From Clostridia bacterium (GTDB lineage: Bacteria > Bacillota > Clostridia > UMGS1810): a stretch of 64,000 nt of DNA. Below, piece by piece: positions 4,268 through 47,574 of this stretch. The stretch covers positions 1 to 64,000 of the forward strand of contig JAFVUE010000009.1 in NCBI GenBank assembly GCA_017502845.1. Direction: 5' to 3'. A model generated the notes under the pieces. The model searched no databases. It worked only from the letters and a program-made list of their open reading frames with translations, and had not been told where the DNA came from. Made by a program: the position numbers and the translations under genes. Numbering within the stretch: position 1 is the first letter of the stretch; each line of letters begins with the position of its first letter.

Positions 4268-5494
4268 TTATATTAAAGCGCCATCTTCTCTTAATTTGTT
4301 CTGCAATGTTTTAATATCTATATCGTGAGTAGTGGTATTGGCTTTCTGCGCCACTGCAATAGCAGTACCTGCGGCTTCACCCACACAAGCGCAAATAGGC
4401 ATTACCCTTACTGCAGAATGAGCAACATGTGTCGCAGAGAGACAACGACCTGCTACAAGCATGTTGTCATATTCTTTGGGGAGTAAGCAACGGTATGGGA
4501 TGCGATAAAATTCACCGGGATTCAGGTGAAACTGTATAGTTCCCGTTCCCGACGGATTGTGAATGTCGATTCCGTAGTTGCCGAGAGCAACTGTGTCTTC
4601 AAAATCAAGAAATTCCGTTACATCCTTTTCTGTAAGAATGTAAACACCTTTTAACTTTCTGCTTTCTCTTACGCCGATATGACTTGCGATTGAAACAACA
4701 GTACTGTTTTTGAATGCATCGGAATTTTCTTTAAGGAAATCCGCCATTTCATAAACTTGCTTTCTCGCAGTAATTTCGGCTTTGCTTAATTCAAACGGGT
4801 CAACGGGATTGTGCTTTACGATTCTTGTTGTGTTAAAATGTACGATTCCTGCACCAAATCCCAAGAAGAACAAAATGTTTTCTCTTGGGTTTATTATTTT
4901 GTTCTCTTTCTGTAGATTTTCGTATTTTTCCTGCAAAACATCTTTCTCTTTTAAGAATAAATCAATATCAACATTGCTCATTCTGAAACAAGTTGTCATG
5001 GGTTGAGAAAGACCATCGCTTTCTCTGCCGAGTTGATAATCACAACCCGTCATATAGATAAGTTCGCCATCGCCCGATGCATCAATAAAGTAATCTGCTT
5101 CAACACTGATAACACCTGATTTTGTTGCGATTTTGACACTCTTGATTTTTCTGTCTTCTGTTATTGCTTCAAAAACAGTTGAATGGAATAAAACATCCAC
5201 ACCCGATTCCATAAGCATATCATCAAAAACTAATTTGTATGCTTCCCAGGATGTGTCGTTGTATTTTTCTTTTCTATCCACCATTTCGTGAAAGATTTTG
5301 TCTGCGATAACTCTTTTGTTTTTGCTATACATTGATGCACCCGAGTAAGGATACACCAAACTGTTTGACATTGCACCGCCGAGAGAACCGAATTTTTCCA
5401 CTACAAGAACAGAAAGACCTTCTCTTGCCGAACTTACTGCAGCGGCTATACCTGATATACCGCCGCCAACAACTACTAAATCATATTTTTTCAT
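4268..5494 (-). CDS. FAD-dependent oxidoreductase (FAD_oxidored family)
   Basis: 408 residues. The ATG at 5494 is preceded by AAAGGTG with a 6-nt spacer; a GTG at 5503 overlaps that site. Seen: an N-terminal dinucleotide-binding fold with the GGGISGIAAA glycine motif at about residues 10-19 and the acidic end of beta-2 (VVEK). A DYFIDASGDGEL motif sits around residue 140, and a C-terminal VAGRCLSATHVAHSAVRVMP segment with CVGEAAGTA closes the FAD site. No signal peptide, so it is cytosolic. Known: PF12831-type enzymes often sit beside glycoside hydrolases and are suspected to oxidise sugars or sugar acids. It is last in a leftward operon with a GH37-like and a GH20-like gene (24 bp gap). The substrate is unknown. 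Confidence 0.85.
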   Translation of the reverse strand: MKKYDLVVVGGGISGIAAAVSSAREGLSVLVVEKFGSLGGAMSNSLVYPYSGASMYSKNKRVIADKIFHEMVDRKEKYNDTSWEAYKLVFDDMLMESGVDVLFHSTVFEAITEDRKIKSVKIATKSGVISVEADYFIDASGDGELIYMTGCDYQLGRESDGLSQPMTTCFRMSNVDIDLFLKEKDVLQEKYENLQKENKIINPRENILFFLGFGAGIVHFNTTRIVKHNPVDPFELSKAEITARKQVYEMADFLKENSDAFKNSTVVSIASHIGVRESRKLKGVYILTEKDVTEFLDFEDTVALGNYGIDIHNPSGTGTIQFHLNPGEFYRIPYRCLLPKEYDNMLVAGRCLSATHVAHSAVRVMPICACVGEAAGTAIAVAQKANTTTHDIDIKTLQNKLREDGALI

Positions 5495-28127: not shown

Positions 28128-28156
28128 TTGACAAAATCGTGTTGGTGTGGTAAAAT
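28128..28156 (+). promoter_or_regulatory. Promoter of the leucine T-box / LeuA-like unit
   Basis: TTGACA at 28128-28133, a 17-nt spacer and TAAAAT at 28151-28156, placing the RNA start near 28163, right before the T-box stem I. Confidence 0.85.
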
Positions 28157-28159
28157 ACA

Positions 28160-28441
28160 TCTATTATAAACGCTGTGATGCGGAATAGTACGCAGGTGCT
28201 TTCGCCTTGAGAGAGGTATCGGTTGGTGCGAGATATCGGGAGAGCTTTGCGGAACTCACCGTGGAGCGGCTGCTGTGAAAGTTTATCAGTAATGGCAGAC
28301 GGGTACTCCCGTAACAGAGTTGAGATGTGTTGGCATCCAGAGCGCATCCTTAGTAAGGATGAAGAAGAGTGGTACCGCGGAAACTGTATTTTAGCGTTTT
28401 CGTCTCTTTGTAAAAATCAAATGAGACGGAAACGTTTTTTT
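28160..28441 (+). promoter_or_regulatory. T-box leader, probably leucine-specific
   Basis: The T-box signature AGAGTGGTACCGCGG ends at 28380. It is followed by an intrinsic terminator: CGTTTTCGTCTC (28395-28406) pairs with GAGACGGAAACG (28423-28434) before a T run. Upstream, a stem I region contains GGAACTCACC. CTC at 28255-28257 follows GAA and precedes A, as T-box specifier codons do, and CUC is a leucine codon. Uncharged tRNA-Leu would stabilise the antiterminator and switch on the downstream genes. The specifier choice is by eye; it agrees with the LeuA-like product. Confidence 0.88.
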
Positions 28442-28479
28442 GATTAATCTGTTAATTGACCGAAAGGGGTATTTATAGT

Positions 28480-29868
28480 ATGAAAAAGATCAGTATTGCA
28501 GATGTTACGCTCAAAGCGCTGTCAGGAGAGAGAGAGGTTGCTCTTCTTTTCCGTGAGAAGACGGCTATCGCGGCTTGTGCAGATTCTCTGGGTGCGGATG
28601 CTGTTGAACTTGCACCCATCAAAAATTTAAGAGAAGATACTATTATCTATAAGACAGTTGCCCAGAATGTGAAGAATGCAATTGTTTCCGTTCCTGTTGG
28701 TTTTGCTGCAGAGGACGTTGCTTCTGCATGGGAGAGCATAAAGGATGCGGCAAAGCCCCGACTTCAGGTAGAACTGCCCGTGTCAACAGTGCAGATGGAG
28801 TATACATATCATATGAAAGCCGATAAGATGATTGCAAAAATCGGCGAACTTGTAAGAACGGCAAAAACTTACTGTGCAGACGTGGAATTCTCTGCGCTTG
28901 ATGCAACCCGTGCGGATAAGGAATGCCTTGTTTCTGCAGTAACGGAAGCCGTTTCAAACGGCGCAACCGTTGTTACCGTTTGCGACGATGCTGGTGTATC
29001 TCTTCCTGAGGAGATTGCGGATCTTGTTAAAACTGTTAAAGATGTAGTCGATGTTCCCGTGTATGTTAAGGTTTCTGACCGTATCAGTATGGGTGTGGCA
29101 TCAGCCATTGCCGCTATCGGAAAAGGAGCAGACGGTCTCAAGTGCGCTATGGCAGGTAAGGATGTTCTTCTTGCAGGAAAATTCTGCGATGCAATGACAG
29201 CTTGTTCTGCCCAGATTGGGGCGGAGACAAATCTTGATAAGACAAAGATTCACTCAAGTATCGATGAAATGCTCACAAAAATTAATCACGAAGCATACGA
29301 TGACGAAAGTTCCGTAAGCGAGAAGAAAAAGATTCTTTTGGATTCCGACAGCACAATCGCACAGATTGCACAGGCGGCACAACTTCTCGGCTATGACCTT
29401 TCCGATTCCGATTGCGGAAATGTTCATAAAGCACTTTTGCAGGTTTGCGAGAAGAAGGATGCTGTTGGTGCAAAGGAACTTGAAGCGCTTATCGCAAGTT
29501 CTGCTATGCAGGCACCTTCCACATACCATCTTGAAAGCTATACTACAAACAGCAGTAACCTCACAAGCTCAATGTCCCAGGTTACTCTCAAATGTAATGA
29601 TGAGATCATCTGCGGCGTAAGCACAGGCGATGGTTCTATTGATTCTGCTTTCCGTGCTATTGAGCAGTGTATCGGTCATCATTATGAACTTGATGATTTT
29701 CAGGTACAGTCTGTTACAGAGGGTAAGGAGGCACTTGGTTCTGCTATCGTCCGCCTCCGCAATAACGGCAAACTCTATTCGGGTAACGGTACTTCTACGG
29801 ATATAGTTGCGGCAAGTATCAGGGCGTATATCAATGCGCTCAATAAGATAGTGTTCGAGGAGGCATAA
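28480..29868 (+). CDS. LeuA-like protein: degenerate DRE-TIM barrel with intact leucine-binding domain
   Basis: 462 residues from the ATG at 28480 (GGGG ten bases upstream). The N-terminal ~270 residues align in outline with 2-isopropylmalate synthase (IADVTLKAL..., CADSLGADAVEL, CADVEFSALDATRAD, NGATVVTVCDDAGVSLP). The catalytic TLRDGEQ is replaced by TLKALSGER, and the metal-binding HTHxDxG segment by VKVSDRISMG, so Arg, Asp and both His ligands are missing. In contrast the C-terminal ~120 residues (from about 345) keep the LeuA regulatory domain: GDGSIDSAFRAIE, GKEALGSAIVRL and GNGTSTDIVAASIRAYINALN. Inferred: not a working synthase; it could be a leucine sensor, an enzyme of altered chemistry, or a partner of the next protein. 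It is first in a T-box-controlled operon. Confidence 0.85.
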   Translation: MKKISIADVTLKALSGEREVALLFREKTAIAACADSLGADAVELAPIKNLREDTIIYKTVAQNVKNAIVSVPVGFAAEDVASAWESIKDAAKPRLQVELPVSTVQMEYTYHMKADKMIAKIGELVRTAKTYCADVEFSALDATRADKECLVSAVTEAVSNGATVVTVCDDAGVSLPEEIADLVKTVKDVVDVPVYVKVSDRISMGVASAIAAIGKGADGLKCAMAGKDVLLAGKFCDAMTACSAQIGAETNLDKTKIHSSIDEMLTKINHEAYDDESSVSEKKKILLDSDSTIAQIAQAAQLLGYDLSDSDCGNVHKALLQVCEKKDAVGAKELEALIASSAMQAPSTYHLESYTTNSSNLTSSMSQVTLKCNDEIICGVSTGDGSIDSAFRAIEQCIGHHYELDDFQVQSVTEGKEALGSAIVRLRNNGKLYSGNGTSTDIVAASIRAYINALNKIVFEEA

Positions 29869-29869
29869 G

Positions 29870-32329
29870 ATGAAAATTGTATTTTCAACAAAGAATGTGA
29901 ACCGTGCATCTTTTCTCGATATGTGCCGCTATGCCTACGACTACGGATTTTCGGGATTTGAGATATACGATGCCATAAAGGAACGTAGTCAGCACCACGA
30001 CAGTATCCTCCGCAGAGACCGTGTTGCAGATGCAAAGCGTAAGCTTATCAACCGCAATCTTACCGTATCTGCTCTCCGTATGCCTGATCCTATTGAAAGC
30101 GAAGAAACAACGGTAGAAACAGTTCTTAAATATGTTGATATGGCGGCAAATGCCGGTGTTGAAAACATAATTGTCCGTGTAGAAGAAAAGACAGATTTTG
30201 ATGTAATGGCAGAAAAACTCACTCTTGCTATCAAAAAAGCGGAAAAATCCGATGTAGGCATCCTGTTTGAGACAGTCGGTTATCTTTCACACACAGAAAA
30301 TGTTATTGATATTATTAACTATTTCTCATCAGCCGTAATCGGTGCGGCATGGAATGTAAGAGGAACATATTTCGGTGCAGGGGAAACTGCAGAGACCACT
30401 ATCAAATCTCTCGGTGCATATATTAAATACGTACGTCTTGGCGATATGAAAGACGGTAAAACCGTTCTGATAGGCGAGGGCGAACTTCCTGTAGAAAATC
30501 TTATCAACGCTCTCTCATCCCTTAATTTCGACGGATTTATCTGTGCGGCGTGGAATGAAGACATCAACGATGCAGACATCGTGCTCACTCACTTTGCAAA
30601 CTATGTTTCATCACTTAAACGCGATAAGAAAAATTTCGACACATCATACTATAACAGAGATAAGACAGGCACATTTGTATGGCAGAAGTATGACGTAATA
30701 GATGCCACTTTCTCCGATGTACTTGATAAAATGGTTGAGAAATATCCCGACCAGTACGCATTCAAATACCCCACACTTGACTATACAAGAACATACGAGC
30801 AGTTCCGCCGTGATGTTGATGAGTGTGCGGCAGCCCTTATTTCTCTTGGCGTTAAGGCGGGAGACCATGTTGCGGTGTGGGCAACCAATGTTCCCGAATG
30901 GTTTATCACATTTTGGGCGACAACAAAAATCGGTGCAGTCTTGGTTACTGTAAATACAGCTTATAAAATCCACGAGATCGAGTATCTGTTAAAGCAGTCT
31001 GATACACATACTCTCGTTATGATTGAATTCTGTAAGGATATCAATTACAAAGAGATTATCGCAGAGCTATGTCCAGAACTCGAAACCCTTACTCCGGGCG
31101 AACCCCTGTATTCTAAAAACCTGCCATTCCTCCGTAATGTTGTAACCGTTGGCTTCTCTATGAACGGTTGCCTTACCTGGGATCAGATGCTTTCACGTTC
31201 AGCACTTATTCCCCGTGAAGAGGTGCGCAGACGAGCATCGCTGGTTAAACCCGATGATGTATGCAATATGCAGTATACTTCAGGTACAACAGGTTTCCCC
31301 AAGGGCGTTATGCTTACTCATAGAAACATTGTAAATAACGGCAAGACTATCGGCGATAGAATGGACCTTTCTACTGCAGACCGTATGATGATTCAAGTGC
31401 CTATGTTCCATTGCTTTGGTATGGTTCTTTCGATGACATCAATGATGACACACGGCGGAACACTTTGTCCGATTCCGTATTTCTCGCCGAAATCATCACT
31501 GGCATGTGTGAACGATGAACACATAACCTGCTTCAACGGTGTTCCCACCATGTTCATTGCAATGTTCAACCACCCTGACTTTGCAAAAACAGATTTCTCT
31601 TATATGAGAACGGGTATTATGGCAGGTGCAAACTGCCCTGCAGACCTTATGCGACGTGCTGCAGATGAGATGAATATGCGTGAGATTATCTCTGTTTACG
31701 GTCAGACGGAAGCATCTCCCGGTTGTACAATGGGCGAGGTCAATGAGGATATCGACCACAGAGTTGAGACTGTAGGCAGTCCTTTCCCCGGCGTTGAATG
31801 TAAAGTTATCGACCCCGAGACAGGCGAAGAACTCCCTGACGGAGAAAGCGGCGAATTTATTGCCCGTGGATTTAATATCATGAAGGGTTATTATAAGATG
31901 CCCGAGGCAACTGCACAGGCAATTGATTCCGACGGTTGGCTCCACTCGGGAGATATTTGTTGCCGTACTCCTGACGGTTATTATAAAGTTACCGGTCGTC
32001 TTAAGGATATGATTATCCGTGGAGGCGAGAATCTTTACCCCCGTGAAATAGAGGAATTTTATCTCACTAATCCCAAAGTCCGCGACGTTCAGGTTGTTGG
32101 TGTTCCCGACGAGAGATACGGCGAGGAATGTTGTGCATGGGTTATTCTGCATAAGGGCGAAACAGCGGACGAAAACGAGATGAAAGAATTTGGTAATGCA
32201 TCTATTGCAAGACATAAAGTTCCGAGATACTTTATGTTTGTAGATGAATTCCCCATGAATGCCGCAGGTAAGATTCTTAAGTATAAAATGCGCGATATTG
32301 CCGCAGAAACTCTCGGACTTAAAAAATGA
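29870..32329 (+). CDS. Fusion: xylose-isomerase-like TIM barrel + acyl-CoA synthetase
   Basis: 819 residues; the ATG is one base after the previous stop with GAGGAGG upstream. Residues ~1-255 are a sugar-phosphate isomerase/AP-endonuclease-2-like barrel (YAYDYGFSGFEIYDAI, MAANAGVENIIVRVEEK, GILFETVGYLSHT, YIKYVRLGDMKDGKTVLIGEGELP). Residues ~275-819 are an ANL adenylating enzyme with YTSGTTGFPKGVMLTH (A3), YGQTEASP (A5), GWLHSGDICC (A7), VTGRLKDMIIRGGENLYP (A8) and AAGKILKYKMR (A10 Lys). The ligase part looks active and resembles medium/short-chain fatty acyl-CoA synthetases. No frameshift or separate start lies between the halves, so it is a true fusion. Cytosolic. Its context, a leucine T-box and pseudo-LeuA, suggests a branched-chain or hydroxy acid substrate; this is inference. 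Confidence 0.9.
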   Translation: MKIVFSTKNVNRASFLDMCRYAYDYGFSGFEIYDAIKERSQHHDSILRRDRVADAKRKLINRNLTVSALRMPDPIESEETTVETVLKYVDMAANAGVENIIVRVEEKTDFDVMAEKLTLAIKKAEKSDVGILFETVGYLSHTENVIDIINYFSSAVIGAAWNVRGTYFGAGETAETTIKSLGAYIKYVRLGDMKDGKTVLIGEGELPVENLINALSSLNFDGFICAAWNEDINDADIVLTHFANYVSSLKRDKKNFDTSYYNRDKTGTFVWQKYDVIDATFSDVLDKMVEKYPDQYAFKYPTLDYTRTYEQFRRDVDECAAALISLGVKAGDHVAVWATNVPEWFITFWATTKIGAVLVTVNTAYKIHEIEYLLKQSDTHTLVMIEFCKDINYKEIIAELCPELETLTPGEPLYSKNLPFLRNVVTVGFSMNGCLTWDQMLSRSALIPREEVRRRASLVKPDDVCNMQYTSGTTGFPKGVMLTHRNIVNNGKTIGDRMDLSTADRMMIQVPMFHCFGMVLSMTSMMTHGGTLCPIPYFSPKSSLACVNDEHITCFNGVPTMFIAMFNHPDFAKTDFSYMRTGIMAGANCPADLMRRAADEMNMREIISVYGQTEASPGCTMGEVNEDIDHRVETVGSPFPGVECKVIDPETGEELPDGESGEFIARGFNIMKGYYKMPEATAQAIDSDGWLHSGDICCRTPDGYYKVTGRLKDMIIRGGENLYPREIEEFYLTNPKVRDVQVVGVPDERYGEECCAWVILHKGETADENEMKEFGNASIARHKVPRYFMFVDEFPMNAAGKILKYKMRDIAAETLGLKK

Positions 32330-32453: not shown

Positions 32454-33320
32454 GTGAAAAGACGATGGGGGGACCGATATGATGCAAGTAGAGTCCGTGA
32501 TATAGACGGTGTGCATCATTATATGGCGTACCTTATGCCGAAAAGAACAGATGCAGAAGTGTATCTTAACGAAACGATTGACGTTACAGACCTGCTTAAA
32601 TATATTGCCGAAAAGAACGCTACAGGCGAGAGGAAAGTTACAATGTTCCATTGTGTGATTGCTGCGGTGGCAAGAACAGTTAAGATGAGACCTTTGCTTA
32701 ACCGCTACATATCAGGCAAGAGATATTATGACCGTAACGAGATTACTATGGGATTCACAATCAAGAAAAAGTTTGAAGACCATGCAGAAGAATCACTTTT
32801 TATATACCGCCCAAAGGATGAGGAAAATCTCTGTGCTATCACAGACCGACTTACTCCCCAACTTAAAGAGGCGAAAAAAGATACAGGCGTAAAGGTTGAC
32901 GATATCCTTAATGTCGTTAAGAAGCTTCCGAAACCCATTATGCATCTTTTTATGGCTTTTATGAGATTTGCTGACAGTCATGGACTTATGCCAAAATCAT
33001 TCAGCAGTGTTGATCCCAATTACTGTTCAGTAATGCTTTCAAACCTTGGCAGTATCAAGTGCGACGCTGTGTACCATCATCTTAATAATTTCGGTACTAA
33101 CGGCATAGTTATTACTATAGGCGAGATACATAAGGAATTTGTGCCCGACGAAAATGGCAATCCTTCTTTGCGGGATGTTATGAATATCGGTGCTACATTG
33201 GATGAAAGAATAGCAGATGGCTTTTACTTTGCCCGTTCGCTTAAACTTATAAAACACATCTTCAAAAATCCTGAGTTACTGGATAAAACATTAGGGGAGG
33301 AAATCGATTTTGAGTTCTGA
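32454..33320 (+). CDS. E2/CAT-fold acyltransferase-like protein lacking the catalytic His
   Basis: 288 residues, GTG start with AAGGAG seven bases upstream. The fold is that of 2-oxoacid dehydrogenase acyltransferase catalytic domains and chloramphenicol acetyltransferase: LNETIDVTDLLKYI, FHCVIAAVARTVKMRPLLNRYI, SVMLSNLGSIKCDAVYHHLNNFGTNG and a C-terminal LDERIADGFYFARSLK. That last motif corresponds to DHRxxDG of E2 enzymes, but the His is Glu251, while Asp255 and Gly256 remain. No lipoyl or subunit-binding domain is present. It overlaps the next gene by 11 nt, so the two are translationally coupled. Likely it handles an acyl-CoA made by the neighbouring synthetase, either with different catalysis or as a binding protein. 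Confidence 0.85.
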   Translation: MKRRWGDRYDASRVRDIDGVHHYMAYLMPKRTDAEVYLNETIDVTDLLKYIAEKNATGERKVTMFHCVIAAVARTVKMRPLLNRYISGKRYYDRNEITMGFTIKKKFEDHAEESLFIYRPKDEENLCAITDRLTPQLKEAKKDTGVKVDDILNVVKKLPKPIMHLFMAFMRFADSHGLMPKSFSSVDPNYCSVMLSNLGSIKCDAVYHHLNNFGTNGIVITIGEIHKEFVPDENGNPSLRDVMNIGATLDERIADGFYFARSLKLIKHIFKNPELLDKTLGEEIDFEF

Positions 33321-35007
33321 TGCAAAATGGTTTAAGTACTACGGGGATGTTCCTCACACTCTGAACTATCCCGATATTTCCATGTATGATATGATAAGAA
33401 GAACTGCCAATAAATACAGCGATAATATCGCTTACGATTTTATGGGCAGATCCGTTACATTCAGAGAATTTATTGCAGAGATAGACACTTGTGCAAGAGC
33501 ACTTGTTGCCCAGGGTGTTAAAGCAGGAGAGGCAGTTACCGTTTGTCTGCCCAATACACCCCAGGCGGTTGTTATGTTCTACGCTGTCAATAAGATTGGT
33601 GCTATAGCGAGTATGGTTCATCCTTTATCTGCAGAGAATGAGATACTCTTCTATCTCAATGAGAGTAATAGCCGTGTAGCTATCACTCTTTCACAGTTCT
33701 ATGACAAATTCAAAGCCATCAAAGGTAAAACCTGTCTTGAGAAACTCATCGTTTCAAAGATCGAGGAAGCCCTCCCCCGTGTGAAAGGGTTTTTGTATAA
33801 ATTTGTCGGACATGAACCCAAAGTTGCAGATGAGCCCTGGGTTATCGGCTGGAATACATTTTTGAATTCTGCTGATAAAGTTTCAGAAGATGTTGGCTAC
33901 AGGGGTGTGGGAGAAGATCCTGCAGTTATCCTTTTCAGCGGCGGTACAACAGGAACCTCCAAAGGTATCCTGCTTACTAACCTTAACTTCAACGCACTTG
34001 CAATGCAGACAGCAGCGGCGTCCGGTTGCTTTGCTCCCGGCGATATTATGCTTTCCGTAATGCCTGTGTTCCACGGCTTTGGTCTTGGTGTGGGTATTCA
34101 TACTATCCTTGTTGCTGCAGGTAAGTGTGTGCTTGTGCCGAGAGTACATATAGACGAATTTCCCGGCCTTTTCAAGAAACATAAGATTAATTATATGGCT
34201 GGTGTTCCCACCCTCTTCGAGGGTATGATGCGAAACGAGGGGATGAAGAAAGCAGACCTTTCCTCTCTTAAAGGCCTTTTCAGCGGTGGCGACTCACTTT
34301 CTGTTGAACTTAAAAAGAAAGTGGATGCTTTCCTTAAAGACAGAGGAGCAAATATCCATGTCCGTGAGGGATACGGCACTACTGAGTGCGTAACAGCAAG
34401 TTGCCTGACTCCTATAGACTGTTACCGTGAGGGAAGTATAGGTATTCCATTCCCTGACACATACTATAAAATTGTAATCCCTAATACAAACGAAGAAGCC
34501 GCACCCGGAGAAATGGGAGAGATCTGTATTTCGGGTCCCACACTTATGAAAGAATATATTAATAATCCCAAGGAAACAAGTCTTACACTCCGTGAACATG
34601 ATGATGGCAAGGTGTACCTGCATACAGGCGACCTTGGTCGTATGGATGAAGACGGATTTATCTACTTTGTTCAGCGCCTTAAGAGAATGATTGTAACAAG
34701 CGGATATAATGTATATCCCTCACAGATTGAGAACGTAATCGACTCTCATGAAGCGGTAATGTTCTCCACGGTTATCGGTGTTAAGGATGAGGTAAGAATT
34801 CAGAAGGTAAAGGCATTCATTGTGCTGAAACCGGGATTTACTCCCACAGATGAGATAAAGGAATCTATTAAATCTCTCTGCGAGAAGAATATTGCAAAAT
34901 ACGCTCTTCCGAGGGAATATGAATTCCGTGATAACCTTCCCAAAACACTCGTAGGCAAGGTTGCTTATCGCGAACTTGAGAAGGAAGAAGAAGCAAAGAT
35001 AAAATAA
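33310..35007 (+). CDS. AMP-dependent acyl-CoA synthetase
   Basis: 565 residues from a TTG at 33310 with GGGGAGG nine bases upstream. ANL-superfamily motifs: FSGGTTGTSKGILLT (A3; the usual SGTTG has become GGTTG), GYGTTECV (A5), LHTGDLGRMDEDGF (A7), QRLKRMIVTSGYNVYP (A8) and LPKTLVGKVAYREL with the C-terminal Lys. It activates a carboxylic acid to its CoA thioester through an acyl-AMP, in the cytosol. It differs clearly from the synthetase half of the fusion encoded upstream and is coupled to the acyltransferase-like gene. The substrate cannot be read from the sequence. Confidence 0.9.
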   Translation: MSSDAKWFKYYGDVPHTLNYPDISMYDMIRRTANKYSDNIAYDFMGRSVTFREFIAEIDTCARALVAQGVKAGEAVTVCLPNTPQAVVMFYAVNKIGAIASMVHPLSAENEILFYLNESNSRVAITLSQFYDKFKAIKGKTCLEKLIVSKIEEALPRVKGFLYKFVGHEPKVADEPWVIGWNTFLNSADKVSEDVGYRGVGEDPAVILFSGGTTGTSKGILLTNLNFNALAMQTAAASGCFAPGDIMLSVMPVFHGFGLGVGIHTILVAAGKCVLVPRVHIDEFPGLFKKHKINYMAGVPTLFEGMMRNEGMKKADLSSLKGLFSGGDSLSVELKKKVDAFLKDRGANIHVREGYGTTECVTASCLTPIDCYREGSIGIPFPDTYYKIVIPNTNEEAAPGEMGEICISGPTLMKEYINNPKETSLTLREHDDGKVYLHTGDLGRMDEDGFIYFVQRLKRMIVTSGYNVYPSQIENVIDSHEAVMFSTVIGVKDEVRIQKVKAFIVLKPGFTPTDEIKESIKSLCEKNIAKYALPREYEFRDNLPKTLVGKVAYRELEKEEEAKIK

Positions 35008-42039: not shown

Positions 42040-42299
42040 TTGCAGACGTAGAAGATGTGTAAGTAGTTTTTCGTCCACCTGCCAAAGAGAGAACGGTTGT
42101 CAGCGGCTGAGAGCAACCGGACAGAGCGAAAAATGAATTTCAGCATCGGAGTCTTTTGCGAAAGTCGTTTTTGATATAAGCAGGGTGTTAGTGCACACGC
42201 CAAAAGCATATTAAAGTGCAGAAATTTTTTCTGAATTCAGGGTGGTACCGCGGGTTATAATGCAGCTCGTCCCTATTTATGGGATCGGGCTGCTTTTTG
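42040..42299 (+). promoter_or_regulatory. T-box leader, phenylalanine-type, of pheST
   Basis: The T-box signature AGGGTGGTACCGCGGG is at 42239-42254. It is followed by an intrinsic terminator: GCAGCTCGTCCC (42262-42273) pairs imperfectly with GGGATCGGGCTGC (42281-42293), then TTTTT. The stem I region shows TTTTTCG/CGAAAAA pairing and an inner CGGTTG/CAACCG helix. The specifier candidate is TTC at 42139-42141 in GAATTTCAGC, a Phe codon, as expected upstream of pheS. Confidence 0.92.
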
Positions 42300-42351: not shown

Positions 42352-43404
42352 ATGACTCCAAAAACACTTGAAGTTAAGCAGAATTTCCTTGCTTCTCTTG
42401 AGAAAGCCACCAATATGGAAGAACTTGAGCAGATCCGTGTTGAATACACAGGTAAAAAAGGTTATGTTACCGAACTGCTTAAGGACATGAAAAATCTCTC
42501 CAATGAGGAGAAGAAAACTTTCGGTCAGGAAGTTAATGTACTTAAAAATGAAGTAAACGACAAACTTGCCGAGAAGAGAGAGGAACTCCACCGCAAGGAA
42601 ATCGAGCTTGAAAACAGCCGTATGCCTGAGTTTGACATTTCAATCCCCGCAGACCTTAAACGTGGTTCATACCATCCTATCACATTGGTTCAGCGCCAGT
42701 GTGAAGAGGTATTCAAATCTATGGGATTCGTGGTAGAGGATTACAGCGAGATTGTTACTGACTATGAATGCTTTGAGGCACTCAATATCCCCAAGACACA
42801 CCCTGCAAGAGATATGCAGGATACTTACTATTTGAGTAACGGTCAGCTTCTCAAATCCCACACATCTGCGGCACAGAATGCTATCTATAAGAAATACAAA
42901 GATGCCCTTATCAATGAGGGTAAGGCAATCAAGGCAATCTTTCCCGGAAGATGCTTCCGTAACGAGGCAACAGATGCCTGTCATGAGAATACATTCTTCC
43001 AGATGGAGGGTATTATGGTAGATAAAAATATCTCCATATCAAACCTTATCTTCTTTATGAAGACAATGCTCTCCGAAGTGTTCAAGAAAGATATTAAAGT
43101 TCGTCTCCGTCCCGGTTTCTTCCCATTTGTGGAACCCGGTTTTGAGCTTGATATCAGTTGCCTTATCTGTGGCGGAGAGGGTTGCCCCTCATGTAAGCAC
43201 AGCGGTTGGCTTGAACTCTGCCCCTGCGGTATGATTCATCCCGAAGTGCTTAAAGCAGGTGGAATTGATCCTGAAGAATATACCGGTTTCGCATTCGGTC
43301 TCGGACTTACACGTCTTGCCATGATGAAATTCGGTGTTAAAGATATCCGTGATCTTAATGGCGGAAGCTTAAAGACACTTTCGCAGTTTACTGACGACAA
43401 ATAA
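42352..43404 (+). CDS. pheS: Phenylalanyl-tRNA synthetase alpha subunit
   Basis: 350 residues, ATG at 42352 after AAAGGA. It forms the (alpha-beta)2 enzyme with PheT and charges tRNA-Phe in the cytosol. N-terminal coiled coil at ~1-90. Class II motifs: HPARDMQDTYYL and SHTSAAQ (motif 1/2 region), FPGRCFRNEATDACHENTFFQMEG (motif 2), AFGLGLTRLAMM (motif 3). A Cys-rich insertion, CLICGGEGCPSC with CPC, near residues 269-292 could hold zinc; it also occurs in other Firmicute PheS proteins. Controlled by the T-box in front. Confidence 0.96.
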   Translation: MTPKTLEVKQNFLASLEKATNMEELEQIRVEYTGKKGYVTELLKDMKNLSNEEKKTFGQEVNVLKNEVNDKLAEKREELHRKEIELENSRMPEFDISIPADLKRGSYHPITLVQRQCEEVFKSMGFVVEDYSEIVTDYECFEALNIPKTHPARDMQDTYYLSNGQLLKSHTSAAQNAIYKKYKDALINEGKAIKAIFPGRCFRNEATDACHENTFFQMEGIMVDKNISISNLIFFMKTMLSEVFKKDIKVRLRPGFFPFVEPGFELDISCLICGGEGCPSCKHSGWLELCPCGMIHPEVLKAGGIDPEEYTGFAFGLGLTRLAMMKFGVKDIRDLNGGSLKTLSQFTDDK

Positions 43405-43423: not shown

Positions 43424-45784
43424 ATGTTTTTATCATTAAACTGGATTTCAGACTTCGTTGATTTAACAGGTCTGGATAAAATGGAACTTATCAATAAATT
43501 TTCACTCTCCACAGCAGAGGTTGAAAATGAAATTTTCTTCAAGGGCAGCGATATCGATGGTATCGTTGTTGCAGAGATCAAGAGCGTAGAGGATCATCCC
43601 GAATCAAAGAAACTCCACCTTCTTAAAGTGGATATCGGCGAGGCAGAACTTGTTGATGTTGTCTGCGGTGCACCTAACGTTAAAGTTGGTCTTAAAACTG
43701 CATTTGCAAAACTTGGTGCACGTATCGGTGATATTACAATCACACCCCGTAAACTTGCAGGGTATACCTCCAATGGTATGTGCTGTTCCGAGAAAGAAAT
43801 CGGTATCAGCGACAACGGCGACGGTATTATGGAGATTACAGATGATGTGGCTCTCGGTACAGACCTTAAGGACATCTATGCCATTGAGGATATTATCTTC
43901 GAGGTTGATAATAAATCCCTCACAAACCGCCCCGACCTTTGGGGACATTACGGTATCGCAAGAGAATTTGCGGCAATTGCCGGCAGAGAACTCAAACCTC
44001 TCGATGTGGCAGATCTTTCTGCTTATGATAAACTGAAAAAAGTCGATCTTAAGATAGAAGACCCCCTTTGCCAGAGATATTCCTGCCTTGAGTTCGGTAA
44101 TATCGGCGTTCATACAAGCCCTGTCAATATGCGAATCCGCCTTTACTACTGCGGTATGAGAGGAATCAACTTCCTTGCCGACCTTACCAACTACTTAATG
44201 CTCGAAATGGGTCAGCCGATGCACGCATTTGACTCACGTAAGGTAGAAAAGATAAGAATCAAACGTTTCGATAAACCTTTCAAATTCCAGACACTTGACG
44301 GAGTAGAACGTGATATTGATGAAAATACACTTATGATCTGCAACGATAATACTCCCGTTGCAATCGCAGGTATTATGGGCGGTCTTGATTCGGAGATCGT
44401 GGAAGATACATCTTCACTTACTCTCGAATCTGCAACATTCGACGCCACATCAATCCGTAAATCCACAGTTCGTCTTGCTCACAGAACAGATGCATCTGTC
44501 CGCTATGAGAAGTGCCTCGATCCGGAAATGACAGTAACCGCAATTGCGAGATTTGTAAAACTTTTAACAGATATCGACAGCGGTGCCGTTGTAACATCAG
44601 CACTTACTGATGAGTACGCTTTCAAGTACGATGATATTTCTCTCACATTTGATAAGCCATTTGTCAATAAGTACACAGGTATCGAAATCGGCAACGATAC
44701 AATTGTGAAAACTCTTGAATCCCTCGGTTTCGGTGTAACTCTTTCAGGGGACGAATTCACAGTAACCGTTCCCAGTTGGAGAGCAACAAAGGACGTTACA
44801 CTCAAAGCCGATATTATTGAGGAAATCACACGTATCTACGGTTATGATAACTTTGATGTTCACACCCTTGCACTTCCTCTGTATCCTATCAGAACTGCAC
44901 AGGAAAAGGATGATGAAGAGAGAATTAAGGATATCCTCGTTAAGCGCTATTCAATGCACGAACTCCATTCATATGTTTGGGCGTACCACGATGAATATAA
45001 GGCACTCGGTATTGAGATAGAGGATAATATTGAGCTTGTCAATGCAACAAACCCCAATATCCAGACAATCCGTAAATCAATCATCCCCACACAGCTTTGT
45101 CAGGTTAAGTATAATACAACATACGCAGCAGACTTCGGTGTGTTTGAAATCGGCAGAGTAGTAGATGGTCTTAAAGATGACGGTATGTGCAATGAGCAGA
45201 AGAAACTTGCCATAACTCTGTTCAGTAAAACAACCGATATGGAAAAACTCTACTATAAACTCCGTGATGTTCTTGCAGTTATTGCAGATGAACTGAAGCA
45301 TAAGCCGCTCACATTTGAAAAGGCGGAGGCAACACATTCATATGAGCATCCCAAGAATCTTAATAAGATTTATTGCGACGGCATTCTCCTTGGCGAAATC
45401 GGTATCGTGAATTCCGTAGTAGGCAAGAAGATTGATAAGAAAGCCAATATTGTATTTGCAGAGATTGATGTTAAGGAGTTTGCAAAGATTGCAAACGCTT
45501 CCATCTCTTACGAAGAACCCTCAAAGTTCCCCGAGATCGAGATTGACTTATCGTTTGTGTCCGACAAATTTTCTCCAATAGCAAAAGCAATAGAGGATGC
45601 GGCTTGTCCTATGATTAAGGATGTAAGCGTTACAGATATCTACACAGACGAAAGCGGCAAATCAATCACAACAAAGATTCGCTTTGCGGATAATGAGCGT
45701 ACATTAACTCGTGAAGAAGTTATGAAAGTTGTTGACGGTATTATAGAATCTCTTGCTGCTGAAGGTATTAACTTAAAGAACTGA
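43424..45784 (+). CDS. pheT: Phenylalanyl-tRNA synthetase beta subunit
   Basis: 786 residues, ATG at 43424 after AAAGGAGGG, 19 bp behind pheS. Domains in order: N-terminal and EMAP/OB-type tRNA-binding domain (~40-150; VVAEIKSVEDHPESKKLHL, VCGAPNV, GICCSEKE-like GMCCSEKEIG), B3/B4 editing domain (~210-380; GMRGINFLADLTNYLMLEMGQPMHAFD), B5 domain (~400-475), a catalytic-like core (~480-670; IRKSIIPTQL) and the C-terminal FDX-ACB anticodon-binding domain (~690-786). Length is typical. Confidence 0.96.
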   Translation: MFLSLNWISDFVDLTGLDKMELINKFSLSTAEVENEIFFKGSDIDGIVVAEIKSVEDHPESKKLHLLKVDIGEAELVDVVCGAPNVKVGLKTAFAKLGARIGDITITPRKLAGYTSNGMCCSEKEIGISDNGDGIMEITDDVALGTDLKDIYAIEDIIFEVDNKSLTNRPDLWGHYGIAREFAAIAGRELKPLDVADLSAYDKLKKVDLKIEDPLCQRYSCLEFGNIGVHTSPVNMRIRLYYCGMRGINFLADLTNYLMLEMGQPMHAFDSRKVEKIRIKRFDKPFKFQTLDGVERDIDENTLMICNDNTPVAIAGIMGGLDSEIVEDTSSLTLESATFDATSIRKSTVRLAHRTDASVRYEKCLDPEMTVTAIARFVKLLTDIDSGAVVTSALTDEYAFKYDDISLTFDKPFVNKYTGIEIGNDTIVKTLESLGFGVTLSGDEFTVTVPSWRATKDVTLKADIIEEITRIYGYDNFDVHTLALPLYPIRTAQEKDDEERIKDILVKRYSMHELHSYVWAYHDEYKALGIEIEDNIELVNATNPNIQTIRKSIIPTQLCQVKYNTTYAADFGVFEIGRVVDGLKDDGMCNEQKKLAITLFSKTTDMEKLYYKLRDVLAVIADELKHKPLTFEKAEATHSYEHPKNLNKIYCDGILLGEIGIVNSVVGKKIDKKANIVFAEIDVKEFAKIANASISYEEPSKFPEIEIDLSFVSDKFSPIAKAIEDAACPMIKDVSVTDIYTDESGKSITTKIRFADNERTLTREEVMKVVDGIIESLAAEGINLKN

Positions 45785-45963: not shown

Positions 45964-47574
45964 ATGATGACTATAGGTGAAAAGATATTAAACTTAAGAA
46001 CTGCTATGCAGATGTCGCAGGAACAACTTGCAGAAAAGGTTTCTGTATCAAGACAGTCAGTTTCAAAATGGGAGATGGATCAGGCACTGCCTCAGATAGA
46101 TAAAGTATTGCAACTTTGTGAACTGTTTGGTGTTTCTGCTGATGAACTTCTCAATGAAAAAGAGATTCCGAAAAAAGACAGAGGACACAATAAATATTTC
46201 GGCACAGACGGTTTCCGCGGCGAAGCCAATGTGAACCTCACATCATTACAGGCGTATAAAGTAGGAAGATTTCTGGGTTGGTACTATACAGTACATTCCA
46301 ATAAAAGACCGAATGCATCTGAACGTCCTCGAATAGTTATAGGCAAAGACACACGTCGTTCAAGTTATATGCTGGAATATTCTATTGCGGCAGGTATTAC
46401 CGCTTCGGGAGCAGATGCTTATATGCTCCATGTTACGACTACACCAAGTGTGTCCTATGTAACCCGTCAGGATGAGTTTGACTGCGGAATAATGATTACT
46501 GCATCTCATAATCCTTTTTATGATAACGGCATCAAGATAATAAACAGATACGGAGAGAAATCGGACGACGCTTTAACAGATCTTATAGAATCTTATATAG
46601 ACGGAGATATGTCCTTTCTCGGAACAGACGGAGAGGATTTGCCTCTTGCCCGTGGAGAACGGCTTGGCTGTATAGTTGATTTTGTGTCGGGCAGAAATAG
46701 ATATGTGGGTTATCTCATATCACTTGCATCCCATTCATACAAAAATTTAAGAATAGGTCTTGACTGTGCAAATGGTGCTTCCTGGATGATTGCCGACTCT
46801 GTTTTCAGTGCGTTGGGAGCGCAGACAGAGGTTATCGGTGCAGAACCCGACGGACTTAATGTTAATATGGATTGCGGTTCTACCCATATAGAGAAACTCT
46901 GTCAGCTTGTAAGGGAAAAGCACCTTGATATTGGATTTGCTTTTGATGGAGATGCTGACCGTTGTATTGCTGTAGATGAAAACGGCAATATTGTAGACGG
47001 AGATGCTATGCTCTATATCCTGGGCAAAAGGTTAAAGTCCAGGGGTATGCTCAATGATGATACTGTTGTGGCAACTGTTATGTCAAACAGCGGACTTATA
47101 AATTCCCTTGAAGAGTCAGGCATCAGATGTGTGCAGACTACAGTAGGCGACAGATTCGTGTATGAGTGTATGCAGAAAAATGATTACAGTATAGGCGGAG
47201 AACAGTCGGGACATATTATACTTAAAAAGTACGCTACCACAGGAGACGGATTGCTTACGGCTATAATGATTGCGGAGGAAATCTGTGATAGCAAGATGCC
47301 CCTTTCTGCCCTTACGAGGGGATTGAAACTTTATCCCCAACATACCGTTAATATCCCTGTTCGTGATAAGAAAGGGGTTATGGAGGATGAAGCGGTGCTT
47401 GAAGAAATGAAAGCGGTGGAGATTTTAATAGGTGGTAAGGGAAGAGTTTTGCTTCGCCCAAGCGGAACAGAACCGGTTATCCGTGTGATGGTAGAGTGTG
47501 AAAGTGAAGAGAATTGCCGCTTGTATGCCGACAGGGTAGGCGGTATGATAATATCAAGGGGGTACGGTTTGTGA
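45964..47574 (+). CDS. Fusion of an XRE HTH domain with a phosphoglucosamine mutase-like enzyme
   Basis: 536 residues, ATG at 45964 after AAAGGTG. Residues ~5-65 form a Cro/C1 HTH (ILNLRTAMQMSQEQLAEKV, VSRQSVSKWEMDQALPQID, then GVSADELLNE). Residues ~75-536 are an alpha-D-phosphohexomutase of GlmM type: YFGTDGFRG at 78-86, active-site loop TASHNP with phosphoserine S181, metal loop DGDADR at 328-333, sugar loop GGEQSGH at 411-417 and phosphate loop RPSGTEP near 500. All catalytic elements are present, so the enzyme should interconvert glucosamine 6- and 1-phosphate (or another hexose phosphate). A DNA-binding domain on this enzyme is unusual and suggests a moonlighting regulator of its own or cell-wall genes. 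Followed by a GTGA-overlapping acetyltransferase. Confidence 0.9.
   Translation: MMTIGEKILNLRTAMQMSQEQLAEKVSVSRQSVSKWEMDQALPQIDKVLQLCELFGVSADELLNEKEIPKKDRGHNKYFGTDGFRGEANVNLTSLQAYKVGRFLGWYYTVHSNKRPNASERPRIVIGKDTRRSSYMLEYSIAAGITASGADAYMLHVTTTPSVSYVTRQDEFDCGIMITASHNPFYDNGIKIINRYGEKSDDALTDLIESYIDGDMSFLGTDGEDLPLARGERLGCIVDFVSGRNRYVGYLISLASHSYKNLRIGLDCANGASWMIADSVFSALGAQTEVIGAEPDGLNVNMDCGSTHIEKLCQLVREKHLDIGFAFDGDADRCIAVDENGNIVDGDAMLYILGKRLKSRGMLNDDTVVATVMSNSGLINSLEESGIRCVQTTVGDRFVYECMQKNDYSIGGEQSGHIILKKYATTGDGLLTAIMIAEEICDSKMPLSALTRGLKLYPQHTVNIPVRDKKGVMEDEAVLEEMKAVEILIGGKGRVLLRPSGTEPVIRVMVECESEENCRLYADRVGGMIISRGYGL

Follow-up and report, generated by a model that had tools for sequence, protein, structure and literature searches.

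A LeuA paralogue of gut bacteria, without catalytic residues, as a probable leucine sensor in the rumen route from isovalerate to leucine

The leucine T-box leader and the two genes behind it

The window analysed here is a stretch of 64,000 nucleotides from a Clostridia bacterium (assembly GCA_017502845.1, contig JAFVUE010000009.1, positions 1 to 64,000). It contains a T-box leader followed by two genes which are 1 nt apart (Table 1). The first, LEUX, encodes a paralogue of 2-isopropylmalate synthase (LeuA); the second, LIG, encodes a fusion of a TIM barrel and an acyl-CoA ligase. LEUX is taken to start at the ATG at 28480, and its stop codon ends at 29868. The TTG at 28456, which appears in the list of open reading frames, is a less likely start.

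Table 1. Features of the LEUX-LIG locus (positions in the window)
Feature	Position	Strand	Basis
Promoter-like site TTGACA-17-TAAAAT, extended TG	28128..28156	+	Consensus scan, 11/12 matches; immediately 5' of the T-box
Leu T-box leader	28166..28410	+	Stem I, AGAGA/GGTG loop, Stem II/III, antiterminator; RF00230 covariance match
Specifier codon CTC (Leu)	28255..28257	+	Specifier-loop alignment, text GAA-CUC-ACC; position read from sequence
T-box sequence TGGTACCGCG	28370..28379	+	tRNA 3'-end pairing, antiterminator; covariance alignment and sequence reading
Competing intrinsic terminator CGTTTTCGTCTC ... GAGACGGAAACG and T run	28395..28441	+	Read by eye from sequence
LEUX, catalytically silenced LeuA paralogue, 462 aa	28480..29868	+	Pfam HMGL-like and LeuA_dimer; AlphaFold model
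TLKALSGER replacing TLRDGEQ (Arg and metal Asp lost)	28507..28533	+	Alignment
VKVSD replacing the HxH(N/D) metal motif	29065..29079	+	Alignment
LeuA_dimer (leucine-binding, allosteric) domain, residues 331-457	29470..29850	+	PF08502, 109.3 bits
LIG, xylose-isomerase-like TIM barrel fused to AMP-forming acyl-CoA ligase, 819 aa	29870..32329	+	PF01261, PF00501 and PF13193
LIG N-terminal barrel, metal ligands lost (WNVR, VRLGD, AAWN)	29870..30664	+	Alignment/inspection
LIG acyl-CoA ligase domains, motifs intact (YTSGTTGFPKG, GRLKD, NAAGKILK)	30728..32272	+	Profile search and alignment

The initial annotation had proposed a leucine T-box with a CTC specifier. The covariance search bears this out: RF00230 matches the leader at 134.3 bits (cut-off 93; E 1.1e-29), and the specifier loop carries CUC at the position given in Table 1. 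T-boxes 5' of leuA were already known, and T-box specifiers agreed with gene function in every verified case (PMC2494555). The terminator was missed by a simple terminator scan, the loop limit of which (8) is exceeded here. About one match as good as the promoter-like site is expected by chance; its support is chiefly positional.

The leader is a property of the family. Among LEUX loci with enough upstream sequence to be counted, 69 of 85 have a T-box upstream, with CTC (or CTG) at the same offset as in the window. A Leu codon was parsed in 62 of the 69, and Leu plus Ile in one (L083); the other six were misparsed and are CTC by eye. Specifier parsing was extended to GTACCGTG-type T-boxes, and Rfam confirmed T-boxes at some loci which the initial pattern had not caught. 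The L083 locus has tandem T-boxes, Leu (CTC) at 4475-4691 and then Ile (ATC) at 4793-5002, both Rfam-confirmed, 5' of a complete operon. In at least seven genomes, LIG genes of this type which have no LEUX beside them are also preceded by CTC (Leu) T-boxes. The window's genome assembly has two T-boxes including the LEUX leader. The second (42040-42277; 81.6 bits, below cut-off) lies directly 5' of pheS (42352-43404) and pheT (43424-45784); it is presumably an ordinary Phe T-box, the specifier of which was not read.

A LeuA paralogue with its regulatory domain kept and its active site lost

Both domains of LEUX score above their Pfam cut-offs: LeuA_dimer (PF08502) at 109.3 bits and HMGL-like (PF00682) at 96 bits. 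The leuA equivalog model TIGR00973 gives 229 bits, which does not reach its cut-off of 598.7. The AlphaFold model of LEUX (pLDDT 85, pTM 0.59) informs on fold only; in the PDB it agrees best with MAM/LeuA structures, among them 3fig, the Leu-bound LeuA of M. tuberculosis. The LeuA_dimer domain, previously described as retained, is indeed intact and is the best-conserved part of the family. Mean column conservation is 0.76 in the regulatory domain versus 0.56 in the barrel (67 representatives, <80% identity).

In LeuA-type enzymes the metal is held by Asp90, His288 and His290 and the substrate by Arg89 and Thr257; the base is His388 with Tyr399 (PMC11532901). Alignment to 6e1j, a LeuA-type structure, places Lys12-Ala13 of LEUX at Arg89-Asp90, and Lys197 and Ser199 at His288 and His290. 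The replacements pointed out in the initial annotation (TLRDGEQ to TLKALSGER, and the His-x-His segment to VKVSDRIS) are real, and two further losses had escaped it: the GERAGN loop and the general-base segment with His388 and Tyr399 are deleted in the window copy.

These losses are common to the whole family. Of the 86 full-length members, one still has the metal Asp, one the first His and none the second; the complete triad is absent throughout. The general-base segment is deleted in 86/86 (reference columns H300 and Y311, equated with His388 and Tyr399 of the PMC11532901 numbering by the mapping made in this analysis). Metal ligands supplied from other conserved positions were considered and rejected, as no conserved His or Asp pair substitutes; the conserved acidic residues E43, E136, D141 and D169 are present in true LeuA too. 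Residues at the barrel mouth are at least 94% conserved (E43, P100, S102, M106-E107-Y108, K113, E136, D141, R144, D169 and K221) and several are family-specific. E43, E107, K113, D141, R144 and D169 are invariant. This suggests, on sequence conservation alone, that the barrel still binds something.

Relatives of LEUX with the same substitutions and the leucine T-box form a large family, found at 33-82% identity across Clostridia. They also occur in metagenome-assembled genomes (MAGs) named Spirochaetales, Salinivirgaceae, Solobacterium and others (the names may be imprecise); nearly all come from animal guts. A tree of 64 proteins places the 45 LEUX rows, without exception, on one side of a branch with support 100/100, nested among true LeuAs, and homologues with intact motifs fall in the true-LeuA group outside this clade. 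The simplest reading of the tree is that LEUX was derived once from LeuA. No description of the family was found in the open-access literature searched.

A survey of 291 genomes of the class found LEUX in 35 and bacterial-type LeuA in 93. The two occur together in 2 genomes versus about 11 expected (Fisher p 1e-4, uncorrected for phylogeny). Within one genus (g61), two genomes (G074, G230) have LEUX and three (G125, G170, G210) have LeuA instead. Frames of about 560 aa point to a probable second, longer type of LeuA in this class. Absence of bacterial-type LeuA is for this reason a weak statistic, and LeuB was therefore used as the pathway marker. In an 80-genome panel LeuB scores above cut-off in 5/36 LEUX carriers, 25/26 true-LeuA genomes and 11/18 others; it is missing in 31/36 LEUX carriers, and two of the five which keep it also have bacterial-type LeuA.

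The ligase partner and the neighbouring pathway genes

LIG (about 820 aa) is the constant partner of LEUX. It is the next gene 3' in 87/91 loci, some of which duplicate one genome, and the genes mostly overlap or lie no more than 20 nt apart. Of the four exceptions, three are cut off where the contig stops; the fourth, L088, is unresolved. In the class survey, too, a match to the LIG barrel adjoins LEUX in carriers, as a comparison of coordinates shows. The ligase domains score 321 bits (PF00501) and 60 bits (PF13193); the ligase motifs, P-loop and catalytic Lys, are invariant in 24 diverse members, and over its whole length the LIG of the window shares no less than 55% identity with that of distant carriers. 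The AlphaFold model of LIG (pLDDT 72 overall, about 90 in the barrel, weak in the ligase core) supports no conclusion drawn here.

LIG is widespread without LEUX; ligase activity in itself therefore does not require LEUX. By inspection, the metal ligands of the LIG barrel (Glu, Asp/His, His, Glu) are kept in the LEUX-free LIGs that were fetched; they are partly kept in some LEUX-paired LIGs, and none remain in the window clade. The intact barrel of LEUX-free LIGs may catalyse something unidentified. A plausible history is that a LeuA copy landed beside a leucine-controlled ligase and that the chemistry of both barrels then decayed. LEUX-free LIGs with intact barrel ligands lie right behind Leu T-boxes at L138-L144, and such LIGs are also found in true-LeuA genomes.

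Several loci contain complete operons which add a branched-chain aminotransferase (BCAT) and a VorB-type 2-oxoacid:ferredoxin oxidoreductase (VOR). The order is LEUX-LIG-BCAT-NTPase-VORabg in some (L054, L079, L082, L083, L085 and L097 have LEUX-LIG-BCAT-NTPase and then the VOR genes) and VORabg-BCAT-LEUX-LIG in others (VOR genes and BCAT 5' of LEUX-LIG in L101, L112 and L127). The BCAT and the VorB alpha subunit (NF005507) of these operons score above their curated cut-offs. VorB is present in 33/36 LEUX carriers and also in 19/26 true-LeuA genomes; an enzyme this frequent in the class says little by its mere presence. The NTPase is a ParA/CbiA-like P-loop protein of about 222 aa, found between the BCAT and VOR genes or nearby (L054:10663-11352 and 23 other loci). 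A gene of the amidohydrolase_2 family (about 268 aa) recurs beside LEUX-LIG in 29 loci, including L039, L046 and L126.

Many LEUX loci also have a fusion of HTH, cupin and acyl-CoA ligase domains nearby, behind an Ile or Val T-box. One protein group reads Ile (ATC) in 24/24 readable cases and the other Val (GTA or GTC) in 15/15. Since the parser chose among candidate positions, this concordance is provisional. Examples are L112:519-2783, L081:16745-19168 and L127:15455-17719, among others. Their HTH-cupin part may sense amino acids or acyl groups within the protein itself and so play a role like that proposed for LEUX. Most obviously, isovalerate, 2-methylbutyrate and isobutyrate would each have a ligase of their own, and all three would feed a common VOR and BCAT.

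In the window's own organism the rest of the route is unproven, because neither VorB nor a type-II BCAT was found in its assembly (0.82 Mb, 72% complete) or in the same-genus relative G001 (88% complete). The co-presence of ligase, VorB and BCAT thus rests on operons of other carriers. For this genus there are three possibilities: other enzymes complete the route, the missing genes lie in sequence absent from the assemblies, or the cassette serves fatty-acid synthesis. In G001 a ligase with an Ile T-box adjoins LIG, and the window's assembly has a PFOR-sized frame at C9:96470.

Proposed role of LEUX in an isovalerate route to leucine

Rumen bacteria classically need branched-chain volatile fatty acids as growth factors, and labelling showed decades ago that these acids are carboxylated to leucine, isoleucine and valine. 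The conversion of isovalerate to leucine in the rumen is established biochemically (Allison et al. 1962, 1966, cited in PMC7356843), and 2-methylbutyrate and isobutyrate are known precursors of isoleucine and valine. The constant ligase partner, the VOR and BCAT genes and the parallel Ile and Val T-box ligases, none of which the initial annotation had noted, place LEUX in a pathway. The preferred reading, with a probability of roughly 0.6, is that LEUX is a non-catalytic leucine sensor of LIG in an isovalerate-carboxylation route to leucine. LIG would activate exogenous isovalerate, its most likely substrate, to isovaleryl-CoA; VOR, running in the carboxylating direction, would convert this to 4-methyl-2-oxopentanoate, and BCAT would form leucine. 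LEUX would have arisen from a true 2-isopropylmalate synthase by loss of the metal site and general base, with the leucine-binding domain kept. Control would be exerted at two levels: uncharged tRNA-Leu would open transcription through the T-box, and leucine bound to LEUX would throttle LIG through LEUX-LIG contacts (feedback inhibition). Sequence shows the T-box and its specifier, the loss of catalytic residues, the retained regulatory domain, the constant gene pair, the complete operons and the near-absence of LeuB. That isovalerate is the substrate, that flux runs towards carboxylation, and that LEUX binds leucine and touches and controls LIG are inferences. The route itself is an inference, and the sensor role of LEUX is less certain than the route.

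The components resemble known systems to different degrees. LEUX has the two-domain architecture and fold of LeuA (TIGR00973; DRE-TIM metallolyase plus LeuA_dimer), carries the GDGxID and GxGxSTDI motifs in its regulatory domain and nests inside the true-LeuA group. It differs from LeuA in having no metal ligands, general-base subdomain or GERAGN loop, in being about 50 aa shorter, and in being paired with an acyl-CoA ligase rather than LeuBCD. HisZ-type regulatory subunits are enzyme-derived pseudoenzymes which confer feedback control. The likeness lies in a catalytically silent enzyme paralogue acting as feedback sensor of another protein, as proposed for LEUX; however, the parent enzyme, effector and partner are different, there is no homology to LEUX, and a physical partnership of LEUX has not been shown. 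The operon alpha subunit meets the curated cut-off for VorB (3-methyl-2-oxobutanoate:ferredoxin oxidoreductase), which is usually assigned to amino-acid oxidation but here lies under a Leu T-box with a ligase. Rumen isovalerate carboxylation involves activation of the acid, its reductive carboxylation and an amination, steps that LIG, VOR and BCAT could perform. That process was described by labelling. The open-access literature searched yielded neither a gene assignment for the isovalerate route nor any mention of T-box control or of a LeuA-derived component in it; subscription work on rumen volatile fatty acids was outside the scope.

Other readings have to be weighed. The interpretation in the initial annotation is supported, as the refuting conditions that it set out itself do not hold. 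Of the two roles it raised, the leucine-sensing subunit remains an inference and new chemistry is not excluded. LEUX could be an enzyme with a new metal-free chemistry, for example on the acyl-adenylate or acyl-CoA of LIG, with leucine as allosteric effector. The barrel mouth has not been free to drift, as its conserved and partly family-specific residues indicate, but the metal Asp, both metal His, the general-base His and its partner Tyr have all gone; moreover, LEUX-free LIGs behind the same Leu T-box leave no obviously missing catalytic step. This reading is unlikely. Leucine is the usual source of the isovaleryl-CoA primer for iso-branched fatty acids, and a cassette which supplies this primer at leucine shortage, without leucine as product, would suit a Leu T-box too; the window genome and G001, with LEUX-LIG and neither VorB nor type-II BCAT found, fit it. 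It is nevertheless rather improbable in view of the complete operons, which include VorB and BCAT in several gene orders, the loss of LeuB in most carriers, and the parallel Ile and Val T-box ligases, the presumed substrates of which are known precursors of those amino acids.

Leucine degradation is a very unlikely function. BCAT and VOR would work oxidatively and the ligase in reverse, yielding isovalerate and ATP, and VorB-type enzymes are indeed reversible and run oxidatively in peptide fermenters. However, a Leu T-box turns genes on when leucine is short, AMP-forming ligases work preferentially towards acyl-CoA, and most carriers lack LeuB. That LEUX is a pseudogene or a lone decayed leuA is consistent with the lost motifs of the window copy, but the family data reject it almost completely: the full-length members share the losses in open frames, and operon, T-box and regulatory domain are conserved.

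LEUX appears to be a case of a biosynthetic enzyme which lost its catalytic function and was retained for the sake of its allosteric domain. The cassette provides candidate genes and a regulatory logic, with three cognate T-boxes, for branched-chain-acid carboxylation, and a genomic marker for gut organisms able to live on isovalerate. The odds are put at about even for the more general proposal that gut anaerobes make leucine, isoleucine and valine from branched-chain volatile fatty acids with one cognate-T-box ligase for each, and that LEUX is a non-catalytic leucine-sensing subunit gating the isovalerate ligase, the barrel of which has lost its metal site.

The window contains further genes 3' of LIG. 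A lone 2-oxoacid dehydrogenase acyltransferase-like domain protein is encoded at 32454-33320 and a second, unfused acyl-CoA ligase at 33310-35007; the relatives examined do not share this arrangement. The protein encoded at 45964-47574 is unusual in joining a DNA-binding domain, an N-terminal HTH_3 (Cro/C1), to a sugar-phosphate enzyme, phosphoglucomutase/phosphomannomutase.
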